A stretch of DNA of 64,000 bases from assembly GCA_018401755.1 (NCBI GenBank), contig JAGYKJ010000007.1, positions 620,001 to 684,000 on the forward strand, given 5' to 3'. Each line of letters begins with the position of its first letter. The stretch's first letter is position 1. Under the pieces are notes generated by a model that saw only the letters and a program-made list of their open reading frames with translations, had not been told where the DNA came from and searched no databases. This DNA comes from Litorivicinus sp. Its GTDB lineage: Bacteria; Pseudomonadota; Gammaproteobacteria; Pseudomonadales; Litorivicinaceae. Below, one piece after another: positions 47,660 through 64,000 of this stretch. Position numbers and translations under genes: made by a program.

Positions 47660-48190
47660 TCAAACATGCATATCCTCTGGGCCGTTCTTGGATGAGCTGT
47701 TGAATGGCCAATGCAGATCAACACCTGATCCGGAGTCAAAAAACACCTCATCACAATTGGCTTCCTGACCATGACGATCAATCACTAAAAATCGCTGTGG
47801 CTGAGTCACCAGCAACGGGTGATGCCAAACGCCCGCATGATAGTTCACACCCTGATCACCGCGAGCCCAGAATGCCCGGACGTCATCACTGGTCGGCGTT
47901 GACGCGACAACCACAAGCCACGGATAGGGATCCAACGGCATGAAGGCCTGACTCCCATAGGGGTGGCATTCCACCATCCGAATCGTCAAGGGTCGAGGGC
48001 GACCGAGAAAAAAGCTGACAATCGCCTTGGCGCCGTTTCCCAGCGTCTGGATATCGCAAAGATTGTGCACCCGCGTGGTATAGCCATGATTGATTTCAAA
48101 TGCATGCGCACCATCCACCTGCAACACCTCTCCAAAGGGGGCAAAGGCCTCAGCAGTCAGGGCTGCTGGCTGAACCACTCGGATACTCAT
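47660..48190 (-). CDS. allA: Ureidoglycolate lyase
   Basis: 176 residues. AllA splits ureidoglycolate into glyoxylate and urea, the last step of allantoin breakdown to glyoxylate. Family blocks: AFAPFGEVLQVDG, VECHPYGSQAFMPL, VVVASTPTSDDVRAF and the metal-binding-like NYHAGVWHHPLL. The ATG overlaps the allantoicase stop (ATGA). It is last in the puuE-uraD-alc-allA operon. Confidence 0.95.
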   Translation of the reverse strand: MSIRVVQPAALTAEAFAPFGEVLQVDGAHAFEINHGYTTRVHNLCDIQTLGNGAKAIVSFFLGRPRPLTIRMVECHPYGSQAFMPLDPYPWLVVVASTPTSDDVRAFWARGDQGVNYHAGVWHHPLLVTQPQRFLVIDRHGQEANCDEVFFDSGSGVDLHWPFNSSSKNGPEDMHV

Positions 48191-49164
48191 GCGCTCACCC
48201 CAAAAATCCGCAGTCGCGAGATACCGCCATCAGGGTAGGTGTTGAGTTTGACATGCGTCACCTCAGTTTGCGTCGCACAGGCAAAGGGATGTATCGCATC
48301 TGCCGTTAAGGCTGTCTGAGGAAGGACTTCAGGCCAAAACATGGCTTGGGTGACCAGCGCATCGCGACCCAAGGCAGGCATCTGCGCCGCTTGTAGCGAA
48401 CAGGCTGCCGGAAAATTCCCCTTAAAATGCGCGGTATCGACCTCGATCCGGGTAATGCACCCCGGTACACCTAATTGCACGATAATCCATTCATTGCCAG
48501 GAACTCGGCGACGTGCGGTCTCCCAGCCATCACCCATCGTCTCGCCGCGACCCGGGGTTAGGATGACTTCTGGATTCCCATAATGCGCATCCGAATAGGC
48601 AACCACCCGACTGCCGTGCAATAGACTGGATAACTCCAACTCAGTTCCGGAAGCGACCGTGGGCGCAACCGGGGTCCCATAAACCCGCAGTCGCGCGACT
48701 CCACCGTCTGGATAAATTTTCAAGCGAATCCAGCGGATACCCTGTTCGGTTGGCTGCGCATCGAAAAAGTGTTGGCGATTCCCCTCCAGCCCGACCTCAT
48801 CGAGTAACGAAATCCAGGTCGACTCATCCGACGGCTGGACCTCACCCGTTGCACCTTCAATACAGGCGCCAGGAGGATAATTCCCGGTAAAATGCCGAGT
48901 ATCAAGATCAAACCCCACGATCACGCCAGGGACTGCCAAACGGATCACGCACCAATCAAATCCAGCACTTCTGCGTCGGCGTGACTCCCAGCCATCCATC
49001 CACTTGCCATTGTGGTCGTATTTACCGACTAAAAAGACTGGCTCTGCATCCTGGATGAGCCGCGACATGTCTGCGAAAAAATCATCACTGCAGGCCACCG
49101 TTTGTGCCCCGAGCTTGGCGCTTGCGAGATTGAGATACGCGGAATATGGATGACGCTCATGCAT
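48187..49164 (-). CDS. alc: Allantoicase
   Basis: 325 residues in two similar allantoicase repeats: each contains an NLAS/SLL-type strand, a DGWE(S/T)RRRR(S/V)xG block (DGWESRRRRSAG; DGWETARRRVPG) and a GxIxxxxxDTxHFxGN segment. The enzyme hydrolyses allantoate to ureidoglycolate and urea. The ATG at 49164 has GGAGG eight bases upstream; a start at 49194 would overlap uraD further. It overlaps uraD by 8 bp and allA by 4. Confidence 0.94.
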   Translation of the reverse strand: MHERHPYSAYLNLASAKLGAQTVACSDDFFADMSRLIQDAEPVFLVGKYDHNGKWMDGWESRRRRSAGFDWCVIRLAVPGVIVGFDLDTRHFTGNYPPGACIEGATGEVQPSDESTWISLLDEVGLEGNRQHFFDAQPTEQGIRWIRLKIYPDGGVARLRVYGTPVAPTVASGTELELSSLLHGSRVVAYSDAHYGNPEVILTPGRGETMGDGWETARRRVPGNEWIIVQLGVPGCITRIEVDTAHFKGNFPAACSLQAAQMPALGRDALVTQAMFWPEVLPQTALTADAIHPFACATQTEVTHVKLNTYPDGGISRLRIFGVSA

Positions 49165-49660
49165 GGGATAATGCCTCCAATCGTAAACGCGCAATGCGAT
49201 GAACTTGGTTCAGTGCAGTCTGAAATTCGGTGTCCTGATCATGCCGAACCCGCTGACGAAACGCTGCCAAAATATCTGTTCGATGGAACCCACGGACTGC
49301 AAAAATAAATGGAAACCCAAAGGTTTCAAGATACTGTGCATTCAACTGCTGAAATTCTGCGAGCTCTTCCGGGGTGCACTGATCAAGACCGGCCCCTTTC
49401 TGCTCATCCTGTGAATGTCTGGTCAACGAGGCCAACGCCAATCGACCAGCCAGGTCTGGGTGTGCGCGCAGTAACGCCAACTGCACCTCAGCCGATGCCG
49501 CATCGACGCGCACCTGCATCTGACTCGCCAACTGCTCTGCCGACTCACCGGGCTCAACTACCTCAAACACCGCCTCGGCGACCCACTCCGCGTGCTCATA
49601 AATCGATCCAAAACGATCAATGAATGCATCCCGACTCAGTGCCATTGGATAGGGCGTCAC
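49157..49660 (-). CDS. uraD: 2-oxo-4-hydroxy-4-carboxy-5-ureidoimidazoline (OHCU) decarboxylase
   Basis: 167 residues from the GTG at 49660 that overlaps the puuE stop (GTGA). UraD makes S-allantoin from OHCU. The catalytic His67 sits in RAHPDLAGRL, and the C-terminal block FGFPFIFAVRG with HRTDILAAF is characteristic. It works right after HiuH in urate breakdown. Confidence 0.94.
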   Translation of the reverse strand: MTPYPMALSRDAFIDRFGSIYEHAEWVAEAVFEVVEPGESAEQLASQMQVRVDAASAEVQLALLRAHPDLAGRLALASLTRHSQDEQKGAGLDQCTPEELAEFQQLNAQYLETFGFPFIFAVRGFHRTDILAAFRQRVRHDQDTEFQTALNQVHRIARLRLEALSHA

Positions 49661-50577
49661 CGAATGTCTCCTGGATAGGGGACCTGTGTTGCAAAGTGGC
49701 GCGCAAGATCGATCCGTCGACACACCCACACCGCATCATGTGCCAAGACATAATCGAGGAATCGTTGCAGCCCAGCAAATCGAGCAGGTCGACCAATCAG
49801 TCGACAATGCAATCCCACCGAGAGCATTTTTGGACAGGTTGCGCCCTCTGCATAGAGCACATCGAATGCATCTTTGAGATAGGTCTCAAACTGTTCAGCT
49901 GTATGAAATCCCTGCGCAGTGGCGAACCGCATGTCATTGGTATCGAGCGTATACGGGACCACTAAATGCGGCCGATGGGTCTCCAAACGACTCCAAAACG
50001 GCAAGTCATCTGAGTAATCATCCGCATCATATTCAAAATGATCAAAACTATTGACGAGACTTCGGGTATGTTCACTGGTCCGACCGGTATACCACCCAAA
50101 TGGCTTCTCTCCCGTCAATGCCTGATGCATGTCAATTGCTTGCTCCATGTGCGCACGTTCATCAGCGCGCGTAAACCCATCGTAATTAATCCAACGGTAC
50201 CCATGGCTGGCAATCTCATGACCATCCTTGAGCATCTGCTCCACCACCCCGGGGTTGCGCGCCATTGCCATGGCCACACCAAATACGGTCAATGGCACTT
50301 GACGCGACCGAAACAGGTCGAGAATTCGCCACACGCCAGCGCGACTACCGTACTCATAAATGGATTCCATCGACAAATGACGACGGCCTTGGAAGGCAGT
50401 CGCACCAATGATCTCAGACAAAAAAATCTCACTCGCGGCATCCCCATGAAGGACGGAGTTTTCCGCCCCTTCTTCGTAGTTCAGGACAAACTGAACAGCG
50501 ACACGCGCATTCGCTGGCCAGCTGATCTGGGGTGGATGCGCGGCATAGCCAATGAGATCTCGAGGATATTGCGTCAA
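49657..50577 (-). CDS. puuE: Allantoinase PuuE (polysaccharide-deacetylase fold)
   Basis: 306 residues. PuuE is the metal-independent allantoinase that opens allantoin to allantoate. Family features: RDLIGYAAHPPQISWP, NYEEGAENSVLHGD, EYGSRAGVWRILDLF, HEIASHGYRWINY and a C-terminal LHCRLIGRPAR. The start is a TTG at 50577 with AGGG upstream. It is the first gene of the leftward purine operon, divergent from puuD. Confidence 0.94.
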   Translation of the reverse strand: MTQYPRDLIGYAAHPPQISWPANARVAVQFVLNYEEGAENSVLHGDAASEIFLSEIIGATAFQGRRHLSMESIYEYGSRAGVWRILDLFRSRQVPLTVFGVAMAMARNPGVVEQMLKDGHEIASHGYRWINYDGFTRADERAHMEQAIDMHQALTGEKPFGWYTGRTSEHTRSLVNSFDHFEYDADDYSDDLPFWSRLETHRPHLVVPYTLDTNDMRFATAQGFHTAEQFETYLKDAFDVLYAEGATCPKMLSVGLHCRLIGRPARFAGLQRFLDYVLAHDAVWVCRRIDLARHFATQVPYPGDIR

Positions 50578-50633
50578 TTGTGGGCCCTATCAAACAACAC
50601 CAATGCGATTATCCAATAAAACAGACTGACCAC

Positions 50634-50652
50634 TATCAATTTTTAGTTGATA
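50634..50652. promoter_or_regulatory. Inverted repeat in the puuE-puuD divergent promoter region
   Basis: TATCAA (50634-50639) and TTGATA (50647-50652) form a spaced inverted repeat in the 154-bp gap between the two purine operons. A second short repeat, AGTCT and AGACT around GAGT, lies further right at about 50687-50700. These could be sites for the LysR regulator encoded after puuD. No binding motif is known to me for this regulator. Confidence 0.3.
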
Positions 50653-50731
50653 ATCCAACGCTTATTTCCGTCTAATCAAAATTGAGAGTCTGAGTAGACT
50701 AGGCGTCTCACAACACAACGGGGGTACAGGC

Positions 50732-51916
50732 ATGGCCGACTATTGGATGGAGTGGGCGAGTTTACTGCTAAGGTGGTTACACGTCATTACTGCAATCGCA
50801 TGGATTGGCAGCTCCTTCTACTTTGTCTGGCTGGACCTTTCGTTGAGAAAACGTGATGGCTTGACTCCGGGTGTCCATGGAGAATCGTGGTCTGTCCATG
50901 GCGGCGGCTTTTACCATGTCCAAAAATACCTGGTGGCGCCTGCACAAATGCCCCCCGAACTGCATTGGTTCAAATATGAAAGCTACTTCACCTGGATCAG
51001 TGGCTTTAGTTTATTGGTGGTGACCTACTACTGGGGCGCATCTGCGTATCTAATTGACACATCCGTTGCCGCCTGGAGCCCTCTGCAAGCAGTCGGTCTC
51101 TCCCTTTTTGGCTTAATCATCGGATGGCTGATCTACGACGGGCTGTGTCGAAGCCCGCTGGGACGACACCTGCCCATCCTCGCTTGGTCTGTGTTTCTGA
51201 TGATCTTAGTGGCAAGTTGGCTATTCAGCCAAACCTTCAGTAGCCGAGCCGCCCTGCTACACGTGGGTGCCATGATTGCAACTTGGATGACGGCTAATGT
51301 CTTTTTCATCATCATTCCGAACCAGAAAAAAGTAGTGCGCAGTCTCGAAGCAGGTGAAGCCCCTGATCCATCGCTGGGTCTCCAAGCGAAGCAGCGGTCG
51401 ACGCACAACAATTATCTCACCCTACCCGTCCTCTTTATGATGCTCTCAAATCATTACCCGATGACCTTTGTGGGGGATCAATTATGGATCTTGGTGGGTT
51501 TTGTGGTGTTGATCGGTGGCGTCGTACGTGACTACTTTAATGCCTCGCATGCAGGGGGAGATGGCTGGCGTATTCGCTGGCAATGGCCGCTCGCATCCAT
51601 GTTGACGCTCACTCTCGCAGTCTGGGCAATGCCATCCAGCCTGACGCGTGGTCCACCGAGTACTGCTGTGACAGACACAGAGGTATTACAAATTGTGACC
51701 ACGCACTGCGCCGGATGTCATGCATCGGTTCCAACGCAAGTGGGCTTTCAGAATGCTCCTAAAGGAGTTGTGCTGGAGACATTAGTGGATATCGATCGCT
51801 ACCAAGCGCAGATCTACAGCCAAAGTGTGGCAAGCCAAGCAATGCCCTTGGCAAATATCACGCAAATGTCTGAGGACGAGCGTGCCCGTCTAGGCGCATG
51901 GATTCAGGCCCGCTAG
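50732..51916 (+). CDS. puuD: Membrane-bound urate hydroxylase PuuD with C-terminal cytochrome c domain
   Basis: 394 residues. Eight or so transmembrane helices (HVITAIAWIGSSFYFVWLD opening) carry the urate-oxidising domain, followed by a periplasmic cytochrome c domain with heme motif CAGCH (326-330) and probable axial Met371 (QAMPLANIT). PuuD oxidises urate to 5-hydroxyisourate and passes electrons to the respiratory chain, without making peroxide. The LysR gene follows after 3 bp. Confidence 0.94.
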   Translation: MADYWMEWASLLLRWLHVITAIAWIGSSFYFVWLDLSLRKRDGLTPGVHGESWSVHGGGFYHVQKYLVAPAQMPPELHWFKYESYFTWISGFSLLVVTYYWGASAYLIDTSVAAWSPLQAVGLSLFGLIIGWLIYDGLCRSPLGRHLPILAWSVFLMILVASWLFSQTFSSRAALLHVGAMIATWMTANVFFIIIPNQKKVVRSLEAGEAPDPSLGLQAKQRSTHNNYLTLPVLFMMLSNHYPMTFVGDQLWILVGFVVLIGGVVRDYFNASHAGGDGWRIRWQWPLASMLTLTLAVWAMPSSLTRGPPSTAVTDTEVLQIVTTHCAGCHASVPTQVGFQNAPKGVVLETLVDIDRYQAQIYSQSVASQAMPLANITQMSEDERARLGAWIQAR

Positions 51917-51919
51917 TCG

Positions 51920-52858
51920 ATGCACGCGGTCTCCGACATCGACATCTTTTGCCGCGTCGTCGAACTGGAAAGTTTTTCAGAAGCGGGACGTCATTTGCGG
52001 ATTTCGACGGCGGTGGTCAGTGCACGGATTCAGAAGCTCGAGGATAAGTTGGGCGTCCGGCTTCTCAATCGAACCACTCGGTCAGTCGGAGTCACTGAGG
52101 CCGGTGCACTCTACTACGCCACCTGTCGCGAGGTCACTGAACGTCTGCGCGAGACCGAAGCACACCTCGAATACATGAAAGATAAGCCCCAAGGCATCAT
52201 TAAAATTAGTGCCCCCTATGCCCTGGGTCGACGTGTCATCGCCCCGTTACTGGCTCAATTTAAAGCCGCCTATCCGTATGTCGAGTGTCGCTTGGATGTC
52301 ACCGATCGAACCGTCAACCTCGTCGATGATCAAATTGATCTTGCCATTCGCCAGGGTATTCTTCCGGACTCATCCTGGATCATGCGGCGTCTCGTGCCGG
52401 ATCACCGGATTACTGCTGCAAGTCCTGTCTATCTGGATCGCCATTCCCCGATCACACATCCCAATGACTTAAAGATGCACCAATGTTTACTCCTGCGATT
52501 TGCGGGCTCCACTCGATTTCACTGGCAATTCCAGATCAATGGGCGCGTCGCATATCACACTGTGCAAGGAGACCTTGACAGTTCATCCAGTGAGATTTTA
52601 ACAGCCTGGGCTGTGGCTGATTTAGGCGTGGTCCAGCAAAGCCTGTGGAGCCTTAGCCATGCGTTGGATGGACAACAACTGGTTCCAATTTTGGCACCCT
52701 ATGAGGTCACTGGATTACATATTCACGCACTCACACCGGAGCGTAAGAGTCGAACCTTGAAAGTGGATTTGCTGCTTGACTATCTCGAGGCGCATCTACA
52801 GGCTCATCCCATCACGCAACGTGTGGTCCATTACCAACAACTGGGAGTGCTGGAATGA
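51920..52858 (+). CDS. LysR-family transcriptional regulator in the purine cluster
   Basis: 312 residues. The N-terminal winged helix (DIDIFCRVVELESFSEAGRH; RIQKLEDKLGVRLLNRTTR) is complete; the effector domain follows (IKISAPYALGRRVIAPLLAQF). It lies between puuD and hiuH, overlapping the latter by ATGA, so it probably controls urate breakdown in response to urate or a downstream product. The target is inferred from position. Confidence 0.9.
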   Translation: MHAVSDIDIFCRVVELESFSEAGRHLRISTAVVSARIQKLEDKLGVRLLNRTTRSVGVTEAGALYYATCREVTERLRETEAHLEYMKDKPQGIIKISAPYALGRRVIAPLLAQFKAAYPYVECRLDVTDRTVNLVDDQIDLAIRQGILPDSSWIMRRLVPDHRITAASPVYLDRHSPITHPNDLKMHQCLLLRFAGSTRFHWQFQINGRVAYHTVQGDLDSSSSEILTAWAVADLGVVQQSLWSLSHALDGQQLVPILAPYEVTGLHIHALTPERKSRTLKVDLLLDYLEAHLQAHPITQRVVHYQQLGVLE

Positions 52859-53202
52859 TTACCCTATCGACGCATGTTCTCGATACCGCGCGCGGAATGC
52901 CTGCAGAGGGACTGTCTTTGCAGATCGAGCGACTGACACCCATGCCCGACCAGCTCGGTCTCTTTACAACGAACGCAGATGGTCGTGTGCCCGGGGGCTT
53001 ATTATCCCCTGAGCAAGCCGTTCCAGGGACGTATCGCATACGCTTCGAAGCCGGCGACTATCTCCGGAAATACCATGGAGACCTCCCAGAATTCCCGTTC
53101 CTTGACAGTATTCCGATCGAATTCGGGATCACTGCGGATGGTCACTACCACGTGCCTTTACTGTTAAGTCCGTATGGGTATTCAACCTATCGTGGCAGCT
53201 AG
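52855..53202 (+). CDS. hiuH: 5-hydroxyisourate hydrolase
   Basis: 115 residues, transthyretin-like fold. It hydrolyses 5-hydroxyisourate to OHCU. LSTHVLDTARGMPAEGL with His7 opens the protein, and the C-terminal YRGS signature is present. There is no signal peptide, so it is cytoplasmic. It overlaps the regulator gene and converges on ureG. Confidence 0.95.
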   Translation: MITLSTHVLDTARGMPAEGLSLQIERLTPMPDQLGLFTTNADGRVPGGLLSPEQAVPGTYRIRFEAGDYLRKYHGDLPEFPFLDSIPIEFGITADGHYHVPLLLSPYGYSTYRGS

Positions 53203-53214
53203 TCTGTCCGCGAT

Positions 53215-53826
53215 CTAAAGTCGATCAACCAGTAATCCCCGATCGACAATAAAGCGGATAATGGCCTCCAGGCCTTGGCCCGTTTTCATGTTTGAAAACA
53301 CCACCGGTGCTGCGCCCCGCATTCGACGCGCATCGCGATCCATCACATCCAAGGACGCTCCGACCATAGGTGCAATATCAATCTTATTGATAACCAACAA
53401 ATCACTCTTGGTGATGCCTGGCCCACCCTTTCGGGGAATCTTGTCACCGGCTCCTACATCAATGACATACAAGGTCAAATCAGAGAGCTCTGGGCTAAAT
53501 GTTGCACTTAAGTTGTCACCACCGGATTCCACGAGCACCAACTCCAATCCGGGGTGTGTGGCGATGAGTTGATCAATCGCCTGCAAATTCATTGAGGCAT
53601 CCTCGCGAATCGCCGTATGTGGACAGCCGCCGGTCTCAACACCGGCAATCCGATCCGCCTCGAGTGCCGCGTGACGCGTTAAAAAGTCTGCATCTTCACG
53701 GGTATAAATATCATTGGTGACCACCGCCATATTGTAGTGAGTGCGAAGCGCTTCGCATAACTTCAAGGTCAAGGCAGTTTTACCCGATCCCACTGGCCCT
53801 CCAATGCCAACGCGTAATGCATCCAT
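53215..53826 (-). CDS. ureG: Urease accessory protein UreG (GTPase)
   Basis: 203 residues. P-loop [15 protein letters not shown], the nickel-site [11 protein letters not shown] (CPH motif), [10 protein letters not shown] and [12 protein letters not shown] are all present. UreG hydrolyses GTP to drive nickel insertion with UreD-UreF. It is the last gene of ureDABCEFG, 8 bp after ureF. Confidence 0.97.
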
Positions 53827-53834
53827 ATCAGCTC

Positions 53835-54494
53835 CTATGACCGAAATAAGCGTGAATATTGCGTTTCATGCTGCGCACTCAAAAGACTTTGCATAAACGT
53901 GCTATTGCTCCAGGGAGTGTCACCGTCAACAGGCGACTGGCTCACAGCGAGCAAGGTGGGTTTCAGATCGACCAACACACGGCTGAGCGCCTGTTGTCCC
54001 AAAGGAATCGACTTGGCGGCAACGATCATTTGGTTTTCCAACCACGACCACCCATAGCCCAGCACAGCAACGGACTCTGGCATCGCCCATTGGCGTGCGA
54101 TCTCAGCGTACCTGCTCACTACCGAGACTGGCTCCACAGCTGTGAGAGAAAGACCAATACCAGACGCCCAGCGAGTTAACGCTTGTCCCAATAGCGCATC
54201 CTCTTGACGCAATTCACGGGTTTCGCGTGATGCCAATAGATCCGCATTCAACCTGGTCCATTCAGCGACAGTCTGGGCACGTATCAGTTGCTTCAGAGCC
54301 ACAAAGTCCAGGGTGCCAAGACCATACAGTAAGATCCCACGACACCACTGTGTCAGGGTCTCTGGATCACTAACCTGGCCTGATTCGATGGCCGCCTCGA
54401 GTGCCTGGCTAAATGCGAACGCACCAATCGGAAGCTGCGACGAAAATACATGCAGGGAATTCAGAACCGCGCGAGGGTCGATCGATTCAGCCAT
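53835..54494 (-). CDS. ureF: Urease accessory protein UreF
   Basis: 219 residues from the ATG at 54494, overlapping ureE by 8 bp. The helical UreF fold begins [22 protein letters not shown], followed by [15 protein letters not shown]. UreF bridges UreD-bound apo-urease and UreG during nickel activation. Confidence 0.93.
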
Positions 54495-54933
54495 GATGAT
54501 GTCCCTGATATGGGACGGCGTATGCACCCAGCTCGGGCTCAAATGGCCGCTCAACCTGACTGATCAGGCCGCCCCAGGAATGACACATCTGCTCGAGGAC
54601 ATGATCAGGCGGAAACCAGAGCTGCCCATGGCTAATCTCAACTTGCGTATGCCGGTTACCCAAGTGATAACACACCTGCGCAAATCGCGTGAGATCTTCA
54701 ACCACCACTGCCGTTAAGGTCTCCGATGCTGCTTGGATGTGCACCACCGCTCCATCGTTACTCGCAAGCAACAAGCCAGCGCGTAAGGTCTGTCCTCGAG
54801 GTACGATCAATCCCCACACACTGCCGTCGGATCGCTGTACTGACGTGCGGCTCCGCTGACGGATCGCATAGGGCAATGCGATCACGATCGCATGATCAGG
54901 CGCACTTTTTGTCGGTTGATCAAATTGCTTCAT
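54487..54933 (-). CDS. ureE: Urease accessory protein UreE (nickel chaperone)
   Basis: 148 residues. An N-terminal beta domain (ALPYAIRQRSRTSVQR) precedes the metal-binding domain CYHLGNRHTQVEI. The C-terminus ends in GHHHG, a short His tail rather than a long poly-His region, so nickel storage capacity is probably modest. It lies 3 bp after ureC. Confidence 0.93.
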   Translation of the reverse strand: MKQFDQPTKSAPDHAIVIALPYAIRQRSRTSVQRSDGSVWGLIVPRGQTLRAGLLLASNDGAVVHIQAASETLTAVVVEDLTRFAQVCYHLGNRHTQVEISHGQLWFPPDHVLEQMCHSWGGLISQVERPFEPELGAYAVPYQGHHHG

Positions 54934-54936
54934 CGA

Positions 54937-56637
54937 CTAGAACAGGTAATACCGTTGTGTGAGGGGCAGCTCAAGTGCTGGCTCACAGTACAGGAGTTGA
55001 CCATCTGCGCGAACTGCATAGGTTTGCGGGTCGACCTCAATCACAGGCTGGCGATCATTGAGCACCATATCTCGTTTTTGCAGGGTTCTGGTGTTTTTCA
55101 CGGCCACCAAACGACGCCGTGTTTCGGCCATCCAGGGATTTCCGTGCTCCATTGATAGTGCCGAGACAAAGGTCACCCCGAGCCGCTCGGAAGCCGCCCC
55201 CATGGCCCCAAACATCGGTCGATAATGCACTGGTTGTGGTGTCGGAATCGATGCATTGGGATCGCCCATCGGGGCCATCACAATCAACCCACTTTTGATC
55301 ACCAGTGCCGGCTTGGTCCCAAAAAAAGCGGGCTTCCAAAGCACGAGATCGGCAAGCTTACCCACTTCAATCGAGCCGACCTCATGGGCAATGCCGTGTG
55401 TCAATGCAGGGTTCATGGCGTATTTTGCAATGTAACGACGGGCCCGAAAGTTATCGTGCCAATCCGGATCCTCCGAAAGTGAGCCAAATTGCACCTTCAT
55501 TTTATGTGCGGTTTGCCAGGTTCGCGTAATGACCTCACCGACCCGCCCCATCGCCTGAGAATCCGATGCAATCATGCTAAAGACACCCCAATCATGCAGG
55601 ATATCTTCGGCGGCGATGGTTTCCTTACGAATCCGTGAGTCTGCAAAGGCAACGTCCTCGGGAATCGCTGGGGATAGGTGATGACACACCATCAACATAT
55701 CCAGATGCTCATCCACGGTATTGATCGTGTAGGGTCGGGTTGGATTGGTTGATGACGGCAACACGTGACTCATGCCAGCCGCTTTAATGATATCTGGCGC
55801 GTGGCCGCCACCGGCACCCTCAGTGTGATAGGTGTGAATTGTCCGACCTGCTATGGCCGCGAGAGTATCTTCGACAAAGCCACTTTCATTGAGCGTATCG
55901 GTGTGAATCGCGACCTGGACATCACACTGATCCGCCACCGTTAAACAAGTATCAATTGCTTGCGGTGTGGTTCCCCAATCCTCATGCAATTTCAATCCAC
56001 AGGCACCTGCCGCGACTTGCTCCATCAAAGGAGCGGCCGAACTCGTATTTCCCTTACCGAGAAACCCCAAGTTCATGGGCGATGCCGCGGTCGCCGCCAT
56101 CATCAGCTCCAGGTGATGCGGACCCGGCGTACAGGTTGTGGCATTGGTTCCTGTGGCTGGGCCCGTCCCGCCGCCCAGCATGGTGGTAATTCCAGAGGCC
56201 AGAGCTTCTTCGATTTGCTGCGGACAAATAAAGTGAATGTGGGCATCGACTCCACCAGGAGTGAGAATCTTTCCTTCACCTGCAATGATTTCTGTCCCTG
56301 GCCCAATGATTAGTGTGACGCCGGGTTGCACATCTGGATTCCCCGCCTTGCCGATTCCTGCAATGCGTCCGTCCTTGACGCCGACATCGGCTTTGACAAC
56401 GCCCCAATAATCGAGGATCAAGGCATTGGTGATGACTAAATCCATGGCATCCCGACACAGTCGTTGCGATTGCCCCATGCCATCTCGAATCACCTTGCCA
56501 CCACCAAAGCTCACCTCTTCACCGGCGATGGCGGCATCACGCTCTGGACTGATCCACAGTGCGGTATCACCGAGTCGGATACGATCGCCCACGGTCGGAC
56601 CATAGAGATCTGCGTATGCCTGACGTGATATCTTCAT
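54937..56637 (-). CDS. ureC: Urease subunit alpha
   Basis: 566 residues. Nickel ligands His134 and His136 (DAHIHFI), carbamylated Lys216 (GLKLHEDWG), His245, His271 and Asp359 (ASDSQAMGR), plus the mobile-flap Cys318-His319 (MVCHHLS), all align with the catalytic residues of characterised ureases. It hydrolyses urea to ammonia and carbamate. It overlaps ureB by 4 bp. Confidence 0.98.
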
Positions 56638-56954
56638 GCGCTCGGCTCCTCTAACGCGCCCATCACCAGACCGCGAAAACCATAGACACAGCGATCACCG
56701 GACAGCGCCACCAATGTGACTTGGCGAGTCTGGCCAGGTTCAAATCGCACTGCAGTCCCGGCGGGGATGTTCAAGCGGAAACCACGGGTGACGGATCGAT
56801 CAAAAGACAGTGCCTGATTGGTCTCAAAAAAATGGAAATGGGAGCCGACCTGAATCGGTCGATCACCGGTATTGGCCACCACAACCACGCAGGTTGCTCG
56901 GTCGACATTGAGCGAGATTTCGCCAGGTGCCGTCACAATTTCGCCCGGAATCAT
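56634..56954 (-). CDS. ureB: Urease subunit beta
   Basis: 106 residues: [16 protein letters not shown] opening, [17 protein letters not shown] and [15 protein letters not shown] separate beta subunit with ureA and ureC indicates the three-chain bacterial urease. It overlaps ureA and ureC by ATGA. Confidence 0.97.
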
Positions 56955-57265
56955 ACGACAGCCTCCTGAATGGGGTGATGCACAGTCACCAGCTTGGTTC
57001 CATCCGGAAAGGTCGCCTCGACCTGCACCTCGTCCACCATGGCTGCAATGCCATCCATGACTTGATCGACTGTCAGAATCGTGCGGCCATGGGCCATTAA
57101 CTCTGCCACTGTTCGACCATCTCGGGCGCCTTCAAGAATGGCCATACTGATCAACGCAATCGCTTCTGGATAATTCAGTTTCAATCCACGCGCCAAACGA
57201 CGCTCAGCGACAAGGCCAGCGGTATAGAGCAACAGCTTATCTTTTTCGCGGGGGGTCAATTCCAT
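56951..57265 (-). CDS. ureA: Urease subunit gamma
   Basis: 104 residues from the ATG at 57265, with GGAGG upstream. The sequence opens [17 protein letters not shown] and contains [14 protein letters not shown] and [20 protein letters not shown]. It lies 4 bp after ureD. Confidence 0.97.
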
Positions 57266-57269
57266 CGTG

Positions 57270-58112
57270 TCAGGTCCTCCAGATACGGGGTGGATGCACA
57301 GACTGACCAACGCACAAAGGCGTCCAGTCTGTCCAAAGAGATTCGAGATATTGACGGACTTGCAACGCGTCATCGCCTAAGACTCGGACAATCCCAAGCT
57401 CTGCAGTGACTGCTGTCGCTCCCGTCCAAAGCCCCGACGACGGTGTCGACTGCCGTGCGATCTCGATCGCGGGAATCACTGAGTGTCCCTCCGGTAAGAC
57501 AATCCACAGAACCGCCATCACGGTCAATCCGGCCAGTCCAGCTAAGGATGCGAGCACATCCGGAGTGATGCTGATCCGATCGCGATACAACGCGATACCA
57601 GCCCGATGAATACAGACAGATTGACTGAATTGACCGCTCTGAAACGGTGCATTGGACGCACGCCGGCCAAAGGTCACCTGTTCCCAGCCGACATGCCAAG
57701 CAGAGGGCGCGACAGAGATATCAAAGGATTGCCGCACCCGTGCTCGATCAAAGCAAATGGTGTCCTGTGGTAACCAGGCAAGCCCCGTCTCGTCCGCCAT
57801 CTGTAGACGCACCTCGGTCTGCTGCCACCCTGCCGTATGACGTGCGCCATAGACCTTTCCCGCGGCTGGCGTCGTCACCAGCACGCAAGCCTTCTCGGCA
57901 AGCATCATCTCAATCGCAAGCGAATCCCCCGTTACCAACCCACCCGGTGGATGCAAGAGATAACACTCCGCCCATGGGCCGGTCTGAAATAAGCGCTGAA
58001 TCCGCAGGGGGCCTCGGTGACTCAAACGAACTAATTGCGTCGCACCGTGACGATCACGCTGAAATCGGCCGCTGAGCTCCGCAGGCCATTCAGATAACAG
58101 CGCTTCGTGCAT
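57270..58112 (-). CDS. ureD: Urease accessory protein UreD (UreH)
   Basis: 280 residues from the ATG at 58112. UreD binds apo-urease and recruits UreF-UreG for nickel loading. Family blocks: [29 protein letters not shown] and [13 protein letters not shown]. Longer readings to 58178 or 58211 exist, but the likely transcription start from the sigma-54 promoter is near 58180 and UreD proteins normally begin close to the [12 protein letters not shown] region, so the later ATG is preferred. The ribosome site is weak. Confidence 0.88.
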
Positions 58113-58190
58113 CACCGCTGGGGATGGGCAGACGGTCTGAATCGATGGCTTGGGTTCCAGGACAGTACTTTTCATCATGGGGTTTGCCTG

Positions 58191-58207
58191 TGCCAGAAAT
58201 GTGCCAA
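58191..58207 (-). promoter_or_regulatory. Sigma-54-type promoter of the urease operon
   Basis: On the minus strand, TTGGCACATTTCTGGCA matches the -24/-12 consensus TTGGCACRNNNNTTGCW with one mismatch in the -12 element and keeps the essential GG-N10-GC spacing (GG 58205-58204, GC 58193-58192). Transcription would start about 58180, before ureD. Confidence 0.6.
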
Positions 58208-58258
58208 GCACAAATGACCAGTGAACCCGGACCTTCAGAACCCACGGTTATGTCCTAA

Positions 58259-58275
58259 TGCACCATCGATGTGCA
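58259..58275. promoter_or_regulatory. NtrC-like binding site 1
   Basis: TGCACCATCGATGTGCA matches the NtrC consensus TGCACC-N5-GGTGCA at 11 of 12 defined positions. Its centre lies about 87 bp upstream of the predicted ureD transcription start, a typical enhancer distance. Confidence 0.6.
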
Positions 58276-58318: not shown

Positions 58319-58398
58319 CAGAATCGATGGCGAAGGACTAGACAGTCCAGATCCATGCAGTCATAAAGGTGCTTTGTTTATCGCACCAGGGAATCGTC

Positions 58399-59151
58399 AT
58401 GGTCCATCCATTACTCTCAGTCGCTGGGCACACGGTCTTAATCACCGGGGCATCGCGGGGGATCGGTCGCGCCTTAGCGATTGGTTATGCGGAGGCAGGT
58501 GCAACCGTGCTGTGTTTGGCACGCCCGTCTGAGGCACTGTTCTCGCTCATCGAGTCACTGCATGCGCAGGGACACCAGGCGCACGCAGTTCCTGCGGATC
58601 TCACGACCCTGTCTTATGCAGAGATTCTGGAGGATCTTCCAGCTCTGAATGCGGTCATTCACGCGGCTGGCCTTGCCAGACATCGACCCTTTGGCGAGAT
58701 GACTCGGGATGACTATGCGGCAGTGATGGCATTGAATGTCGAAGCGCCGATGTTCCTCACCCAGGCGATCAGTCAGCGATGGATTTCGACCAACACACCC
58801 GGCTCTGTGGTCTTCATCTCGTCACAATTAGCACATGTCGGCGCATCCGAGCGGGCCCTCTACTGTGGCAGCAAGGCGGCGCTCGAAGGCATCACTCGCG
58901 GGCTTGCTATCGAGCTTGCGCCCCATGGCATCCGCGTCAATACCCTCTGCCCAACCTTTACGCTCACCGAAATGACGGCATCTGCTCTCGCCGATCCTGC
59001 ATTTAAGGCCGCTGTCATTGGACGCATCCCCTTGGGACGTCTGGGTGAGCCCTCAGATTATCTCGGTGCATGTGTGCTACTGACGTCACCCGCTGGGCAG
59101 ATGATCACCGGATCAAGCCTTCGGGTTGATGGTGGTTGGACAGCACAGTGA
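58399..59151 (+). CDS. SDR-family oxidoreductase, first gene of the 5-oxoprolinase operon
   Basis: 250 residues from the ATG at 58399, with AGGGA upstream. Dinucleotide loop TGASRGIGRA, NAVIHAAG, catalytic YCGSK (Y-x-x-x-K) and the closing TGSSLRVDGGW are typical SDR features. The substrate is unknown. The stop overlaps the pxpB start (GTGA), so it belongs to the pxpBC-TRAP operon; it may act on a compound taken up by that transporter or be an unrelated passenger. Confidence 0.88.
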   Translation: MVHPLLSVAGHTVLITGASRGIGRALAIGYAEAGATVLCLARPSEALFSLIESLHAQGHQAHAVPADLTTLSYAEILEDLPALNAVIHAAGLARHRPFGEMTRDDYAAVMALNVEAPMFLTQAISQRWISTNTPGSVVFISSQLAHVGASERALYCGSKAALEGITRGLAIELAPHGIRVNTLCPTFTLTEMTASALADPAFKAAVIGRIPLGRLGEPSDYLGACVLLTSPAGQMITGSSLRVDGGWTAQ

Positions 59152-59852
59152 CCGCTTCGTGGACGCATTGGCAACGGCTAGAGTGGCTCTCAGAGGACAC
59201 ACTCCTGGTTCACTTTCCAAACCCTACGGATGTTGCGACGGCAGCACAGCTTGCCAATCTGGTGCAAGCACTGTTTGCGGATCGCCCAGACTGGTTGTGG
59301 GATGTCACTCCCGGATTTGGGAAGCTCTTGGTGCATTATCGACCGGATCGAATCGACCCCTTAACCTTGGAGCAGGCACTGTCCAAAGCATTGCGTCGGG
59401 CAGTCGCCGCCGATGCGCAGGAAACACAGTCAGTGATTGAGATCCCAGTATGTTACGACCCGCGGGTGGCGCCCGATCTGGCCGATGTGGCGACCTATGC
59501 TGACTTATCGATTGATGCAGTGGTTGCACTCCACTGCAGTGTCGAATATCGCGTTCTGGCTGTGGGGTTTGCGCTCGGATTTGCCTACATGGGACCACTC
59601 CCCGCACCGATTCAATTGCCACGAAAGCGAACACCACGCACCCAAGTTCCCGCCGGCAGCGTGGCGATTGCCGAGGCGCAAACGACCGTGTATCCAATTG
59701 ATACTCCAGGGGGTTGGCATTTGATTGGGCGAACACACCAGCCCCTCGTTCGATTGAGCGACACCATTGACCTCACCCTGCCCCTGGGCAGCCGAGTGCG
59801 ATTCACCCCGATCTCCTATGCTGAGTCTCTCACTCTGGAAAACGCCCGTTGA
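59148..59852 (+). CDS. pxpB: 5-oxoprolinase subunit PxpB
   Basis: 234 residues from the GTG at 59148. It belongs to the carboxyltransferase C/D (allophanate hydrolase subunit 1) family: VCYDPRVAPDLADVA, GFALGFAYMGPLP, RKRTPRTQVPAGSVAIAE and the TPGGWHLIGRT end. With PxpA and PxpC it turns 5-oxoproline into glutamate using ATP. It overlaps pxpC as TTGA. Confidence 0.92.
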   Translation: MTASWTHWQRLEWLSEDTLLVHFPNPTDVATAAQLANLVQALFADRPDWLWDVTPGFGKLLVHYRPDRIDPLTLEQALSKALRRAVAADAQETQSVIEIPVCYDPRVAPDLADVATYADLSIDAVVALHCSVEYRVLAVGFALGFAYMGPLPAPIQLPRKRTPRTQVPAGSVAIAEAQTTVYPIDTPGGWHLIGRTHQPLVRLSDTIDLTLPLGSRVRFTPISYAESLTLENAR

Positions 59853-60772
59853 GTTTACGTATCCACCATGCGAGCCCTCTGCATACGCTTCAAGACTGGG
59901 GCCGCTTCGGGTATCAATCGCTCGGCGTGACCACTGCAGGCCCCTTGGATCTCCTTGCCTTTTGCTGGCTTCAACACATCCTAGGTGACCCCAAGCAAAC
60001 CGCAGCGATCGAGATCATCCGAGGAGGCTTTGTCGCCGAGTTCACCCAGGCCGTCAGTTTTGCCCTCACCGGAGCCGACTGTCGTGCCGACTTGGCCGGT
60101 CGCCCCTGCCCCAACTGGATCACGCAGAACGCAAAACCAGGGGATCTACTGCGCCTAAACAGTCCCAGCCATGGGCAAATCACGTATCTGTCGATTGCTG
60201 GCGGATTCGATGTCAAACGCCGGTTTGGAAGTGTTGCCACGAGCCGGCGCGATCAACTCGGCGGACTGGATGGCGACGGCTCACCCCTCAAAGCCGGGGA
60301 CGAACTTCCCTTTAGAAATCCCCACCAGCATCTAAGCGGTGTGCCCCGCCGCTTTATTCCGAACTATCAAGAGACCCTGACGCTTCGTTTCATGCCCTGC
60401 TATCAAGCCGAGGCTTTTAGCCAGGAAGGACTCCACTGTCTGCTTCACGAGGCCTATCAAGTCAGCCATGACATCAGTCGGATGGGCTACCGTCTGCAGG
60501 GACCACCGTTACCAGATGTCCCACCCGCCGGGCTGTCTGAGCCGATTGCGTTTGGATCGATCCAAGTCCCGCCCGATGGACAACCCATTGTCCTATTGCG
60601 AGACCGTCAGTCCTTGGGGGGATACCCGAAAATCGGCATTGTAATGCGCGAGGATATCGGCGCATTGTGCCAACGACGACCCGGAGACCCGATCCGCTGG
60701 CAGGCGATACACCGGCAAATCTGTCTGGATCGTTTTTTGCAACTCAGGGGTTATTTTGGCGTGATTGTTTGA
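59849..60772 (+). CDS. pxpC: 5-oxoprolinase subunit PxpC
   Basis: 307 residues from a TTG that overlaps the pxpB stop. The family opening LHTLQDWGRFGYQSLGV, AIEIIRGGFVAEF, the serine-rich middle region and the C-terminal QSLGGYPKIGIVMREDIG block identify the biotin-carboxyltransferase-like PxpC. It is separated from the TRAP gene dctP by 83 bp with its own promoter-like sequence. Confidence 0.92.
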   Translation: MSLRIHHASPLHTLQDWGRFGYQSLGVTTAGPLDLLAFCWLQHILGDPKQTAAIEIIRGGFVAEFTQAVSFALTGADCRADLAGRPCPNWITQNAKPGDLLRLNSPSHGQITYLSIAGGFDVKRRFGSVATSRRDQLGGLDGDGSPLKAGDELPFRNPHQHLSGVPRRFIPNYQETLTLRFMPCYQAEAFSQEGLHCLLHEAYQVSHDISRMGYRLQGPPLPDVPPAGLSEPIAFGSIQVPPDGQPIVLLRDRQSLGGYPKIGIVMREDIGALCQRRPGDPIRWQAIHRQICLDRFLQLRGYFGVIV

Positions 60773-60793
60773 CATACGAAATCGTGATACACC

Positions 60794-60823
60794 TTGGGAT
60801 GATGTCAGCCATCAATTCATAAT
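60794..60823 (+). promoter_or_regulatory. Possible sigma-70 promoter before dctP
   Basis: TTGGGA (60794-60799) and CATAAT (60818-60823) are separated by 18 bp in the 83-bp pxpC-dctP gap. This may give dctP an extra promoter inside the operon. Confidence 0.3.
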
Positions 60824-60855
60824 AAATGATCATCACTCACTCAGGAGTATCGACC

Positions 60856-61830
60856 ATGACAATCGCATTTCGTCCAGTGGCCACTGGACTCGCATTCGCA
60901 GCCACCTTTGGCTTTGCTCAAGCTGTGACTGCAGACACTTGGGACATGCCAACACCCTACCCAGACGCGACCTTCCATACCGTCAATATTCAACAGTTCG
61001 CGAAGGATGTCGCCGCAAACAGTGGTGGTAAACTGACCATTACCGTGCATTCAGCAGGTTCCTTGTTTAAGCATCCGGAGATCAAAAACGCCGTGCGTAA
61101 CGGCCAGGTTCCAATGGGGGAGTTTTTCCTGTCTTTGTTAACCAACGAAAACCCTGCTTTTGGCATTGACTCACAACCCTTTTTAGCGACCAACTATGCG
61201 GATGCAAAACGACTCTGGGCCGCGCAAAAACCGGTCGTTGATAAACTCCTCGATGCGCAAGGGTTGATGGCTCTCTATGCAGTGCCCTGGCCACCACAGG
61301 GGCTCTACACCAAGCGTGAAGTGAATTCCCTCGCAGACCTCAAGGGCATGAAATTCCGGACCAATAACGCGGTTCTTGAAAAACTTGCGCAGAAAGCTGG
61401 CGCAGCGCCAACACAGATCGAGGTACCCGATATTCCACAAGCATTTGCAACCGGTCGTGTTGAGGCGATGATCACCTCACCGTCAACAGGTGCAAACTCG
61501 AAAGCTTGGGACTATCTGAACCATTTCTATGACACCCAAGCATGGGTTCCTAAGAACATCGTGGTGGTAAACAAGCGCGCCTTCCAACGACTGGATGCCG
61601 CCACCCAAAAAGCGGTGAAAGATGCGGCCGCAGCTGCAGAGACCCGCGGTTGGGACATGAGTCAGAAGGAAACTGCAGAAAAGATCGCGATTTTAAAGCA
61701 AAACGGGATCACCGTGCACACGCCCTCAGCTGAGCTCATGAATGGCCTAAAGGCACTTGGCACTGAAATGATCACTGAATGGAAGGCCAGCGCAGGCGCT
61801 GATGGCGCCTCCATCTTGGCGAACTATTAA
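60856..61830 (+). CDS. TRAP transporter solute-binding protein, DctP family
   Basis: 324 residues from the ATG at 60856 with AGGAG upstream. The signal peptide (ATGLAFAATFGFAQAVTA) is cut before DTWDMP. The DctP fold has the LKGMKFRTNNAVLEKLA block that contains the carboxylate-binding arginine, and GAAPTQIEVPDIPQAFATG. Its place among pxp genes suggests 5-oxoproline as ligand, as reported for certain Bordetella DctP proteins. The ligand is inferred. Confidence 0.93.
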   Translation: MTIAFRPVATGLAFAATFGFAQAVTADTWDMPTPYPDATFHTVNIQQFAKDVAANSGGKLTITVHSAGSLFKHPEIKNAVRNGQVPMGEFFLSLLTNENPAFGIDSQPFLATNYADAKRLWAAQKPVVDKLLDAQGLMALYAVPWPPQGLYTKREVNSLADLKGMKFRTNNAVLEKLAQKAGAAPTQIEVPDIPQAFATGRVEAMITSPSTGANSKAWDYLNHFYDTQAWVPKNIVVVNKRAFQRLDAATQKAVKDAAAAAETRGWDMSQKETAEKIAILKQNGITVHTPSAELMNGLKALGTEMITEWKASAGADGASILANY

Positions 61831-61836
61831 GGATCT

Positions 61837-61860
61837 GACGCCACGCACTCGCGTGGCGTC
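61837..61860 (+). terminator. Strong hairpin between dctP and dctQ
   Basis: GACGCCACGC (61837-61846) pairs perfectly with GCGTGGCGTC (61851-61860) around a four-base loop, six bases after the dctP stop. There is no T-run. It is suited to slowing 3' decay of the dctP message or partly stopping transcription, so that the binding protein outnumbers the membrane subunits. Confidence 0.55.
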
Positions 61861-61867
61861 GTCCTAT

Positions 61868-62383
61868 ATGCGCGCCCTGTTGCAACTTAGCTATCGAGCC
61901 AGCGCACTCTGTGGTGCGCTGGCTTTAGTTTGCATCTGCGTAATCATTACGATCCAAGTCATCTTTAATACCATCGATAAGCTGATGTTTTTACTGACCG
62001 GCGAAGCCATTGGCCTAACCGTCCCCAGTTACTCGGAATTTTCCGGACTATTTCTTGCTGCAGGGACTTTTTTGGCACTGGGCTATACCTTCCGCGAATC
62101 TGCCCATATTCGGGTGACCTTGTTGTTACAAGCCCTACCCAATCAGTGGCGACACCGCGCTGAGCAACTGAGCCTTGTCGTCGCGATCGCCATGGTCGGC
62201 TTTTTAACCTGGTATCTCGGCGTGATTACCTGGGAAGCTTGGATTTATCACGATGTCACCTCTGGGATTATCCCTGTTCCCATTTGGATTCCTCAACTGC
62301 TGATGACACTGGGCAGCGGCGTGCTCAGTCTTGCACTGATTGATACCCTCATTTGGGGACCGCAGGCCGCCTCTGATGACTGA
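61868..62383 (+). CDS. TRAP transporter small permease subunit, DctQ family
   Basis: 171 residues with four predicted helices: ASALCGALALVCICVIITIQVIF, FSGLFLAAGTFLALGYTF with ESAHIRVTLL, LSLVVAIAMVGFLTWYLG and LLMTLGSGVLSLALI. The ATG at 61868 has no clear ribosome site because a hairpin stands just before it; an in-frame GTG at 61853 is an alternative. It overlaps dctM by 8 bp. Confidence 0.88.
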   Translation: MRALLQLSYRASALCGALALVCICVIITIQVIFNTIDKLMFLLTGEAIGLTVPSYSEFSGLFLAAGTFLALGYTFRESAHIRVTLLLQALPNQWRHRAEQLSLVVAIAMVGFLTWYLGVITWEAWIYHDVTSGIIPVPIWIPQLLMTLGSGVLSLALIDTLIWGPQAASDD

Positions 62384-63674
62384 ACTCTGGCTCACTCTTG
62401 CGATTTTTATCGGCCTAATCGCATTACTTGCAATGGGCATTTGGGTCGGCATTGCACTGCTCATCGTCGGTCTCATCAGTTTATTACTGTTCGCCAATGC
62501 GCCCGCCGGAATTGTGCTCGCAACCACCACTTGGGGAACACTCAATTCCTGGTCCTTGGCCGCACTGCCTCTATTTATCTGGATGGGTGAAATCCTGTTT
62601 CGATCACGCCTGTCCACCACCCTATTTTCTGGTCTTGCACCTTGGCTTGGCGGACTTCCAGGCCGACTCTTGCACGTCAATATTTTCGGCTCAGCCGTCT
62701 TCGCAGCCGTCAGCGGATCATCTGCAGCGACCGCGGCCACCATTGGTAAAATGTCGATGCCTGAGCTACGCCGGCGTGGGTATCCTGAGCGGCTGATGAT
62801 TGGCACGCTGGCTGGCTCTGCAACGCTTGGATTGCTGATCCCGCCGTCCATTATTCTCATTGTCTATGGGGTTGCCACGGACCAATCCATTGCCCGTTTA
62901 TTTATCGCCGGGATCGCTCCCGGTGCCCTACTGGTTGCCCTCTTTGCCGGCTATGTCATCGTTTGGGGGCTGTTGAATCCATCACTCGTGCCTCGTGAAG
63001 AAGCCAGCTCACTGCGATTCAAATTACGCGCCAGTCGGGATTTGCTGCCGGTCATCGGCCTCATCGTCGGGGTCATCGGATCCGTGTATGCGGGTCTTGC
63101 ATCCCCGACCGATGCGGCAGCACTTGGCGTTGTCCTGGCACTCCTCTTAACAGCGATCCAAGGTGATCTGACGTGGTCTGTCTTCACAGCAGGTTTATTA
63201 GGAGCAGTCAAAACGTCCTGCATGATCGGACTGATTTTGGTCGGAGCCGGTTTTCTAACGGTCGCCATGGGATTTGCCGGCATTCCCCGAATGATCGCCA
63301 GTTGGATCGGCGAGTTGGGGTTGACGCCGGGCGAACTGCTGATTGCGTTGACGCTGTTTTTTGTGGTGCTCGGCTGTTTCTTGGATGGGATCTCAATTGT
63401 TGTCCTGACGACATCCATCATCATGCCAATGGTGTTGCAAGCTGGCATTGATCCGATTTGGTTTGGAATTTATCTCGTCTTAGTGGTCGAGATGTCTCAA
63501 ATCACACCCCCCGTCGGATTCAATCTATTCGTCTTACAAACCATGACTCAGCGTAATATCTTGCAGATTGCACTTGATGCCGTTCCTTTTTTCTTACTGA
63601 TGGTGTTCGCTATTGTGTTGATTACTTGGATGCCTGAGATCGTATTAACACTGCCAAACATGATGGGGCGCTAG
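62376..63674 (+). CDS. TRAP transporter large permease subunit, DctM family
   Basis: 432 residues, about twelve helices. Conserved parts: SLAALPLFIWMGEILFRSRL, FAAVSGSSAATAATIG, SATLGLLIPPSIILIVYG and the C-terminal QITPPVGFNLFVLQ. It is the ion-coupled transport channel of the DctPQM system. The pxpA gene follows after 2 bp, tying transport to 5-oxoproline metabolism. Confidence 0.94.
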   Translation: MTELWLTLAIFIGLIALLAMGIWVGIALLIVGLISLLLFANAPAGIVLATTTWGTLNSWSLAALPLFIWMGEILFRSRLSTTLFSGLAPWLGGLPGRLLHVNIFGSAVFAAVSGSSAATAATIGKMSMPELRRRGYPERLMIGTLAGSATLGLLIPPSIILIVYGVATDQSIARLFIAGIAPGALLVALFAGYVIVWGLLNPSLVPREEASSLRFKLRASRDLLPVIGLIVGVIGSVYAGLASPTDAAALGVVLALLLTAIQGDLTWSVFTAGLLGAVKTSCMIGLILVGAGFLTVAMGFAGIPRMIASWIGELGLTPGELLIALTLFFVVLGCFLDGISIVVLTTSIIMPMVLQAGIDPIWFGIYLVLVVEMSQITPPVGFNLFVLQTMTQRNILQIALDAVPFFLLMVFAIVLITWMPEIVLTLPNMMGR

Positions 63675-63676
63675 AC

Positions 63677-64000
63677 ATGACCCTCCTTCTCAATGCAGAT
63701 ATCGGCGAGAGTTTTGGGCCCTGGACAATGGGCAATGATGCGGCCTTGATGCCTGTCATCGACATGGCCAACATTGCCTGTGGCGGCCACGCCTCAGATC
63801 CTGTGACGATGCAAAAAACTGTCCGGCTTGCGTTATCTCATGGGATCACTCTAGGGGCTCACCCAAGCTACCCCGATCTGTTGGGGTTTGGCCGCCGCCC
63901 GATGGCATTGCCCGTTGGTGAAATTGAGGCCCATGTCTTAGCGCAAGTTGGCGCATTGGCGGCGATCGTAAAGGCTGAGGGAGGACAGTTAAGCTACGTC
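63677..64000 (+). CDS. pxpA: 5-oxoprolinase subunit PxpA (LamB/YcsF family), N-terminal part
   Basis: The first 108 residues are in the window; the gene continues past the right edge. The opening LLNADIGESFGPWTMGND, then NIACGGHASDP and LGAHPSYPDLLGFGRR, are the LamB/YcsF signature. It completes the PxpABC set that hydrolyses 5-oxoproline with ATP. It lies 2 bp after dctM. Confidence 0.94.
   Translation, partial: MTLLLNADIGESFGPWTMGNDAALMPVIDMANIACGGHASDPVTMQKTVRLALSHGITLGAHPSYPDLLGFGRRPMALPVGEIEAHVLAQVGALAAIVKAEGGQLSYV

Follow-up and report, generated by a model that had tools for sequence, protein, structure and literature searches.

The current analysis indicates that the seven-gene operon beginning at position 58399 of the window (i.e., the entire 64,000-nucleotide stretch of Litorivicinus DNA analysed here, 53.8% G+C) is most likely a TRAP transporter version of a known kind of 5-oxoproline uptake and hydrolysis operon, to which the association of a short-chain dehydrogenase/reductase (SDR) gene adds an unexplained element. 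The confidence that can be placed in a 5-oxoproline uptake and hydrolysis function is high, but it extends to the transport and hydrolysis core only. 5-oxoproline, also called pyroglutamate, is a common spontaneous product of glutamate. On the forward strand, the operon encodes in order an SDR-family oxidoreductase of 250 aa (58399–59151; Pfam adh_short_C2, E 6.6e-49, aligned with its genus orthologues), the 5-oxoprolinase subunits PxpB (59148–59852) and PxpC (59849–60772), a pyroglutamate-type TRAP solute-binding protein, DctP (60856–61830, from sequence and structure matches), the small permease DctQ (61868–62383; Pfam DctQ, E 6.1e-17), the large permease DctM (62376–63674; TIGR00786, 356.5 bits against a cut-off of 268.45) and the subunit PxpA, which starts at 63677 and continues past the window end at 64000 to approximately 64420. 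From the genome sequence, the whole pxpA gene encodes 247 aa and matches LamB_YcsF with 302.5 bits. Open reading frames, Pfam and NCBIfam thus bear out the gene identities and order proposed in the initial annotation. Its description of the TRAP genes as joined by 2 to 8 bp junctions holds for the 8 bp overlap of dctQ with dctM and the 2 bp gap between dctM and pxpA, whereas pxpC and dctP are separated by 83 bp and dctP and dctQ by 37 bp, so the claim is true only for the junctions on the pxpA side of the block. The latter distance assumes the dctQ start picked here, the ATG at 61868; an ATG at 61802 is open as well. Elsewhere, SDR/pxpB and pxpB/pxpC each overlap by 4 bp, and an AGGAG precedes the dctP ATG. 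The 83 bp gap includes a sigma-70-like match (60794–60823), but as the region yields 3 such matches versus 4.1 expected, this one does not constitute evidence of a promoter.

The presence of dctP, dctQ and dctM together identifies a TRAP transporter, and the most informative of the three products is the receptor. Among PDB chains, DctP matches 2pfy (1.5e-89), 2pfz (4.3e-89) and 6wgm (5.2e-72) far better than the next entry (2.8e-23), and a structural model (mean pLDDT 88) gives the same grouping, with Z scores of 41.8 for 2pfz, 41.5 for 2pfy and 40.5 for 6wgm compared to 34.7 for the next rows. The titles of all three structures specify pyroglutamate or pyroglutamic acid binding or specificity. 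By both nearest sequence and nearest fold, DctP consequently falls within the pyroglutamate-binding subfamily and is well separated from the remaining TRAP receptors of solved structure. Binding of an unrelated acid would speak against a 5-oxoproline unit, and the placement of DctP with these three receptors by sequence and model points away from it; together, these comparisons provide strong, albeit indirect, support for 5-oxoproline as the probable DctP ligand and for the uptake and hydrolysis unit proposed at the outset. 2pfz and 2pfy are DctP6 and DctP7 of Bordetella pertussis, which in structure alignments are 45 and 46% identical to the window DctP, and 6wgm, the third solved match at 42% identity, is a pyroglutamate TRAP receptor from a marine metagenome. 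DctP7 binds 5-oxoproline with a KD of 0.3 uM, as stated in PMC13274462.

All three PxpABC subunit families are found together in the operon, with CT_C_D, CT_A_B and LamB_YcsF scoring far over their Pfam cut-offs, and the PxpA and PxpB families each have a single match in the genome. At the finer level of NCBIfam, the assignments are less secure: PxpB (TIGR00370, 150.7 bits against 145.55) and the PxpC domain model (TIGR00724, 231.5 against 230.2) pass narrowly, and PxpC reaches only 190.3 bits against the cut-off of 500 for the equivalog NF045499, while the PxpA scan covered the 108 aa inside the window. Due to the low equivalog score of PxpC and the narrow passes, it is conceivable that the substrate of PxpABC is a small lactam other than 5-oxoproline. 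A distinct form of the PxpA ACGxHA motif in TRAP-linked loci was also considered and rejected, as GGHAS occurs in the genus with or without TRAP genes. In TRAP-linked loci outside the genus, the motif reads GFHAS, GYHAS or GFHAA, and TRAP-linked PxpA proteins are scattered over several places of the PxpA tree (37 of 44 loci; the other seven either yielded no PxpA by the motif filter or lay on contigs without pxpA). Separately, a gene of the HglS (2-oxoadipate dioxygenase/decarboxylase) family is encoded downstream of pxpA in locus L006 (7040–7936, minus strand), and HglS-like genes are likewise found near pxpBCA or pxpA in L038, L043, L047 and L056.

Based upon these features, a simple sequence of events can be proposed. 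5-oxoproline would be captured in the periplasm by DctP and carried into the cell by DctQM, and PxpABC would then hydrolyze it to L-glutamate in an ATP-driven reaction. Known TRAP systems are ion-driven.

The association between this type of receptor and 5-oxoprolinase is also evident beyond the genus. In a class-level sample of 369 genomes, such a DctP (matches at E 1e-60 or better) is encoded by 22, pxpA by 40 and both by 12. With the window genome excluded, 11 of 21 DctP-bearing genomes also encode pxpA (Fisher p 8e-7, a guide only, since the genomes are related). As a point against the proposed unit, pxpA is missing from 10 of the 22. Among the 12 with both, dctP and pxpA lie at most 3 kb apart in five (the window genome G000 plus G095, G191, G243 and G317), while in the other seven they occupy separate contigs. 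In G243, the PxpA-family match (C1:447372–448070), which is separated by roughly 2 kb from the gene for a DctP of this type, contains one in-frame stop and is possibly a decaying copy or the product of a sequencing error. From the opposite direction, a DctPQM block adjoins pxpABC in 6 of 28 pxp loci outside the family, the loci having been picked by PxpB or PxpC score and not randomly; these six comprise two Cocleimonas records and four other genomes, and their DctP proteins are 49–54% identical to that of the window. A limited literature search found no published link between a TRAP transporter and pxpABC in one operon, which is a weak negative result.

The closest functional parallel is the pxpTABC operon of Corynebacterium glutamicum, in which 5-oxoprolinase genes and a 5-oxoproline uptake gene are encoded together, according to a 2026 report (PMC13274462) that treats TRAP transporters as a separate class of 5-oxoproline importer. 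The window operon similarly joins 5-oxoprolinase genes to predicted uptake genes. However, the C. glutamicum transporter PxpT consists of one protein, an APC superfamily member nearest to NRAMP, and the operon has a GntR-type regulator, PxpR, whereas the window operon encodes a three-part TRAP transporter and is led by the SDR gene. The same source places the B. pertussis DctP6 and DctP7 genes near a eukaryotic-type 5-oxoprolinase, unlike the pxpABC genes found here.

The role of the SDR is considerably less clear than that of the core. Its sequence contains TGASRGIG and Ser-Tyr-x-x-x-Lys, which we take to be the Rossmann glycine motif and the classical SDR signature, and G17, G21, G23, S142, Y155 and K159 are invariant in all six genus orthologues, as in a classical SDR. 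None of the best 25 of 225 matched NCBIfam models reached its cut-off. The structural model (mean pLDDT 80) matches the HpsO structure 8wwf with a Z score of 30.4, level with many polyol and hexonate dehydrogenases, and with so many comparable fits no substrate can be named. Orthologues of at least 45% identity are encoded by 6 of 22 genus genomes and sit directly before pxpB in each of the six. A search at E 1e-30 returned eight genomes, of which G008 and G018 (38 and 35% identical) were set aside as paralogues by identity alone; these two genes have no pxp gene within 1.5 kb and, having been removed by a motif filter, are absent from the trees. The 5-oxoproline-type DctP is likewise found in 6 of the 22 genomes, with both genes in five, only one in two and neither in 15 (Fisher p 0.0013 for SDRs of at least 45% identity, uncorrected for relatedness). 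Both exceptions lie on contigs that end early: G016 encodes the SDR with no DctP found, its contig ending inside a DadA-like gene before any TRAP gene, and G002 (96% complete) encodes DctP and a racemase with neither SDR nor PxpB-family match, its contig ending at the racemase before any SDR. Seven further genus genomes, four of them less than 80% complete, have pxpB with neither SDR nor DctP, and reading of the DNA in all seven revealed no SDR match directly upstream of pxpB. By position and by co-occurrence, the SDR belongs to the unit, and its association within this one genus is real. The SDR may contribute to the import module by acting upon a small acid with a hydroxyl or keto group, either imported or derived, and not upon 5-oxoproline itself; such a step is a guess based upon co-occurrence and enzyme family.

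When examining SDR relatives outside the genus, a different genetic context is apparent, and it is this context that favors regarding the SDR as a passenger, namely a dehydrogenase of polyols or hydroxy acids, from the broad group to which HpsO also belongs, that became fixed before pxpB in the genus and acts on an unrelated substrate. We consider this a serious contender with somewhat less than an even chance of being correct. In the 37 loci of the nearest outside relatives (flanks of about 1.5 kb; genome G818 contributed no locus to this set), an HpsN-like gene of the histidinol dehydrogenase family, whose best solved match is sulfopropanediol 3-dehydrogenase, adjoins the SDR in 30, and pxp genes are beside it in none. 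Furthermore, the SDR and TRAP genes form one contiguous block in G001, G009 and G010, so that their joint absence elsewhere may reflect one event, and several of the genomes lacking the SDR are incomplete (G004, 60%; G017, 56%; G018, 78%; G020, 72%). Several observations argue against a passenger. A search of the window, L006 and 13 genus loci at E 1e-4 detected no HpsN-like gene, so the SDR has no apparent neighbor of the kind that partners HpsO, the 2,3-dihydroxypropanesulfonate (DHPS) dehydrogenase. HpsO, which together with HpsN belongs to DHPS catabolism (PMC11131964), is an SDR of the same broad group as the window SDR. In addition, the pxp-linked SDRs form one side of a branch separating them from the 37 others with support of 100/99, although the tree is unrooted and one bootstrap is unsettled. 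Lastly, two operon layouts, with DctP proteins only 39% identical, both have the SDR directly before pxpB. The second layout belongs to sibling genomes whose DctP has 6wgm as its best solved match (E 4e-174), which places it in that lineage, and is 38–39% identical to the window DctP, and the retention of the SDR in two layouts with two receptor lineages argues for an SDR role.

The pairing of an SDR with an HpsN-like gene is itself widespread, as seen in L111–L139, L094–L101 and L104; in L104, the pair occurs together with SnoaL-like, cupin, RraA-like and methionine-synthase-like genes. Adjacency of SDR and pxpB as a wide trait was rejected, with none of the 28 pxp loci outside the family, neither of two short same-family loci and none of the 37 SDR-relative loci exhibiting it; an SDR of 28% identity lies about 2 kb away in one of the 28, L054. 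Class-wide SDR relatives accompanied by pxpA (six of eight) or DctP (five of eight) were dropped as support, five of the eight being from two genera.

The sibling clusters also bear upon the substrate of the whole unit. In G001, G009, G010 and, up to its contig end, G016, the cluster adds racemase-family, EamA transporter and DadA-like oxidase genes, with a 2OG-Fe(II) oxygenase gene close by in G001 and G009 and a RidA-like gene in G001 and G016 (families named from the G001 copies). The hydantoin-racemase-family gene directly precedes the SDR in the clusters L037 (2043–12443, from G001), L040, L041 and L044. Such clusters are candidates for a D-5-oxoproline or modified-lactam branch. One could therefore imagine that PxpABC and the TRAP transporter serve a 5-oxoproline analogue, such as a hydroxylated or D-form lactam, with the SDR making or removing the extra group, a reading favored by these added sibling genes and by the way in which the SDR tracks the TRAP receptor across the genus. 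We nonetheless regard it as rather unlikely, because the window operon has none of the added genes, a racemase search of its genome and of G007 gave no match, and DctP clusters with receptors for unmodified pyroglutamate. Similarly tentative, and also improbable on balance, is the proposal that the SDR is a lactam-use enzyme, whereby a 5-oxoproline relative carrying a hydroxy or keto group would enter via the same TRAP transporter and PxpABC would be the common ring-opener. If correct, the genus would use a family of lactams, not 5-oxoproline alone.

Upstream of the 5-oxoproline operon, the gap between the SDR and the divergent ureD encodes potential control elements. Where divergent NtrC sites had been suggested, we find one good dyad and not several, TGCAC-N7-GTGCA (58259–58275), which is NtrC-like by consensus; its core GCAC-N7-GTGC is present as a single copy in the window (58260) and at about the same place in the relative G007. 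A sigma-54-like element with one mismatch lies at 58191–58206 on the minus strand, points toward ureD and has a counterpart in G007; its TGGCA-N6-TGGCA pattern is present as a single copy in the window. Overall, the scans do not exceed chance, as the TGCAC-N7-GTGCA dyad is found at three places in the 2.19-Mb genome (estimated as about chance), a looser search for TGCACC-N5-GGTGCA with up to three mismatches gave 30 matches versus 41 expected, and sigma-54-like elements totaled 41 versus 45 expected. The case for these sites accordingly rests upon their place and their conservation in G007. No sigma-54-like match with two or fewer mismatches points at the SDR within the gap, and since the element by the NtrC-like site faces ureD, we rejected NtrC control of the SDR-pxp operon, an influence that had been entertained previously. 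On the SDR side, GGACTAGACAGT (58335–58346) and GTCATAAAG (58360–58368) are conserved in G007 and possibly constitute a promoter or operator.

Beside the operon, positions 47660–58211 encode a urate-to-ammonia set. Pfam matches include urate oxidase, hydroxyisourate hydrolase, OHCU decarboxylase, allantoicase, ureidoglycolate lyase and UreD, together with a polysaccharide-deacetylase-family gene that is presumably allantoinase-like; urease genes other than UreD were named by eye from the open reading frames. It is with these neighbors in mind that the entire unit could be viewed as part of an NtrC-controlled nitrogen starvation island that also takes in the divergent genes for urease and urate use, as a complete-looking urate-to-urea set and urease adjoin the operon, the motifs of the common gap recur in G007 and the rpoN family is present in the genome. 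This seems distinctly unlikely, the least probable of the readings weighed here, given the orientation of the sigma-54-like element toward ureD only, the chance level of the scans and the lack of any urease gene in the SDR-bearing stretches of G001, G009, G010 and G016 (5.9 to 19.9 kb).

A 5-oxoproline uptake and hydrolysis operon would assign a TRAP transporter a predicted, directly testable substrate and brings solved pyroglutamate receptors together with the PxpABC enzyme in one operon. Should the SDR catalyze a step of its own, the pathway would be extended; otherwise, this would be an ordinary nutrient-scavenging operon.
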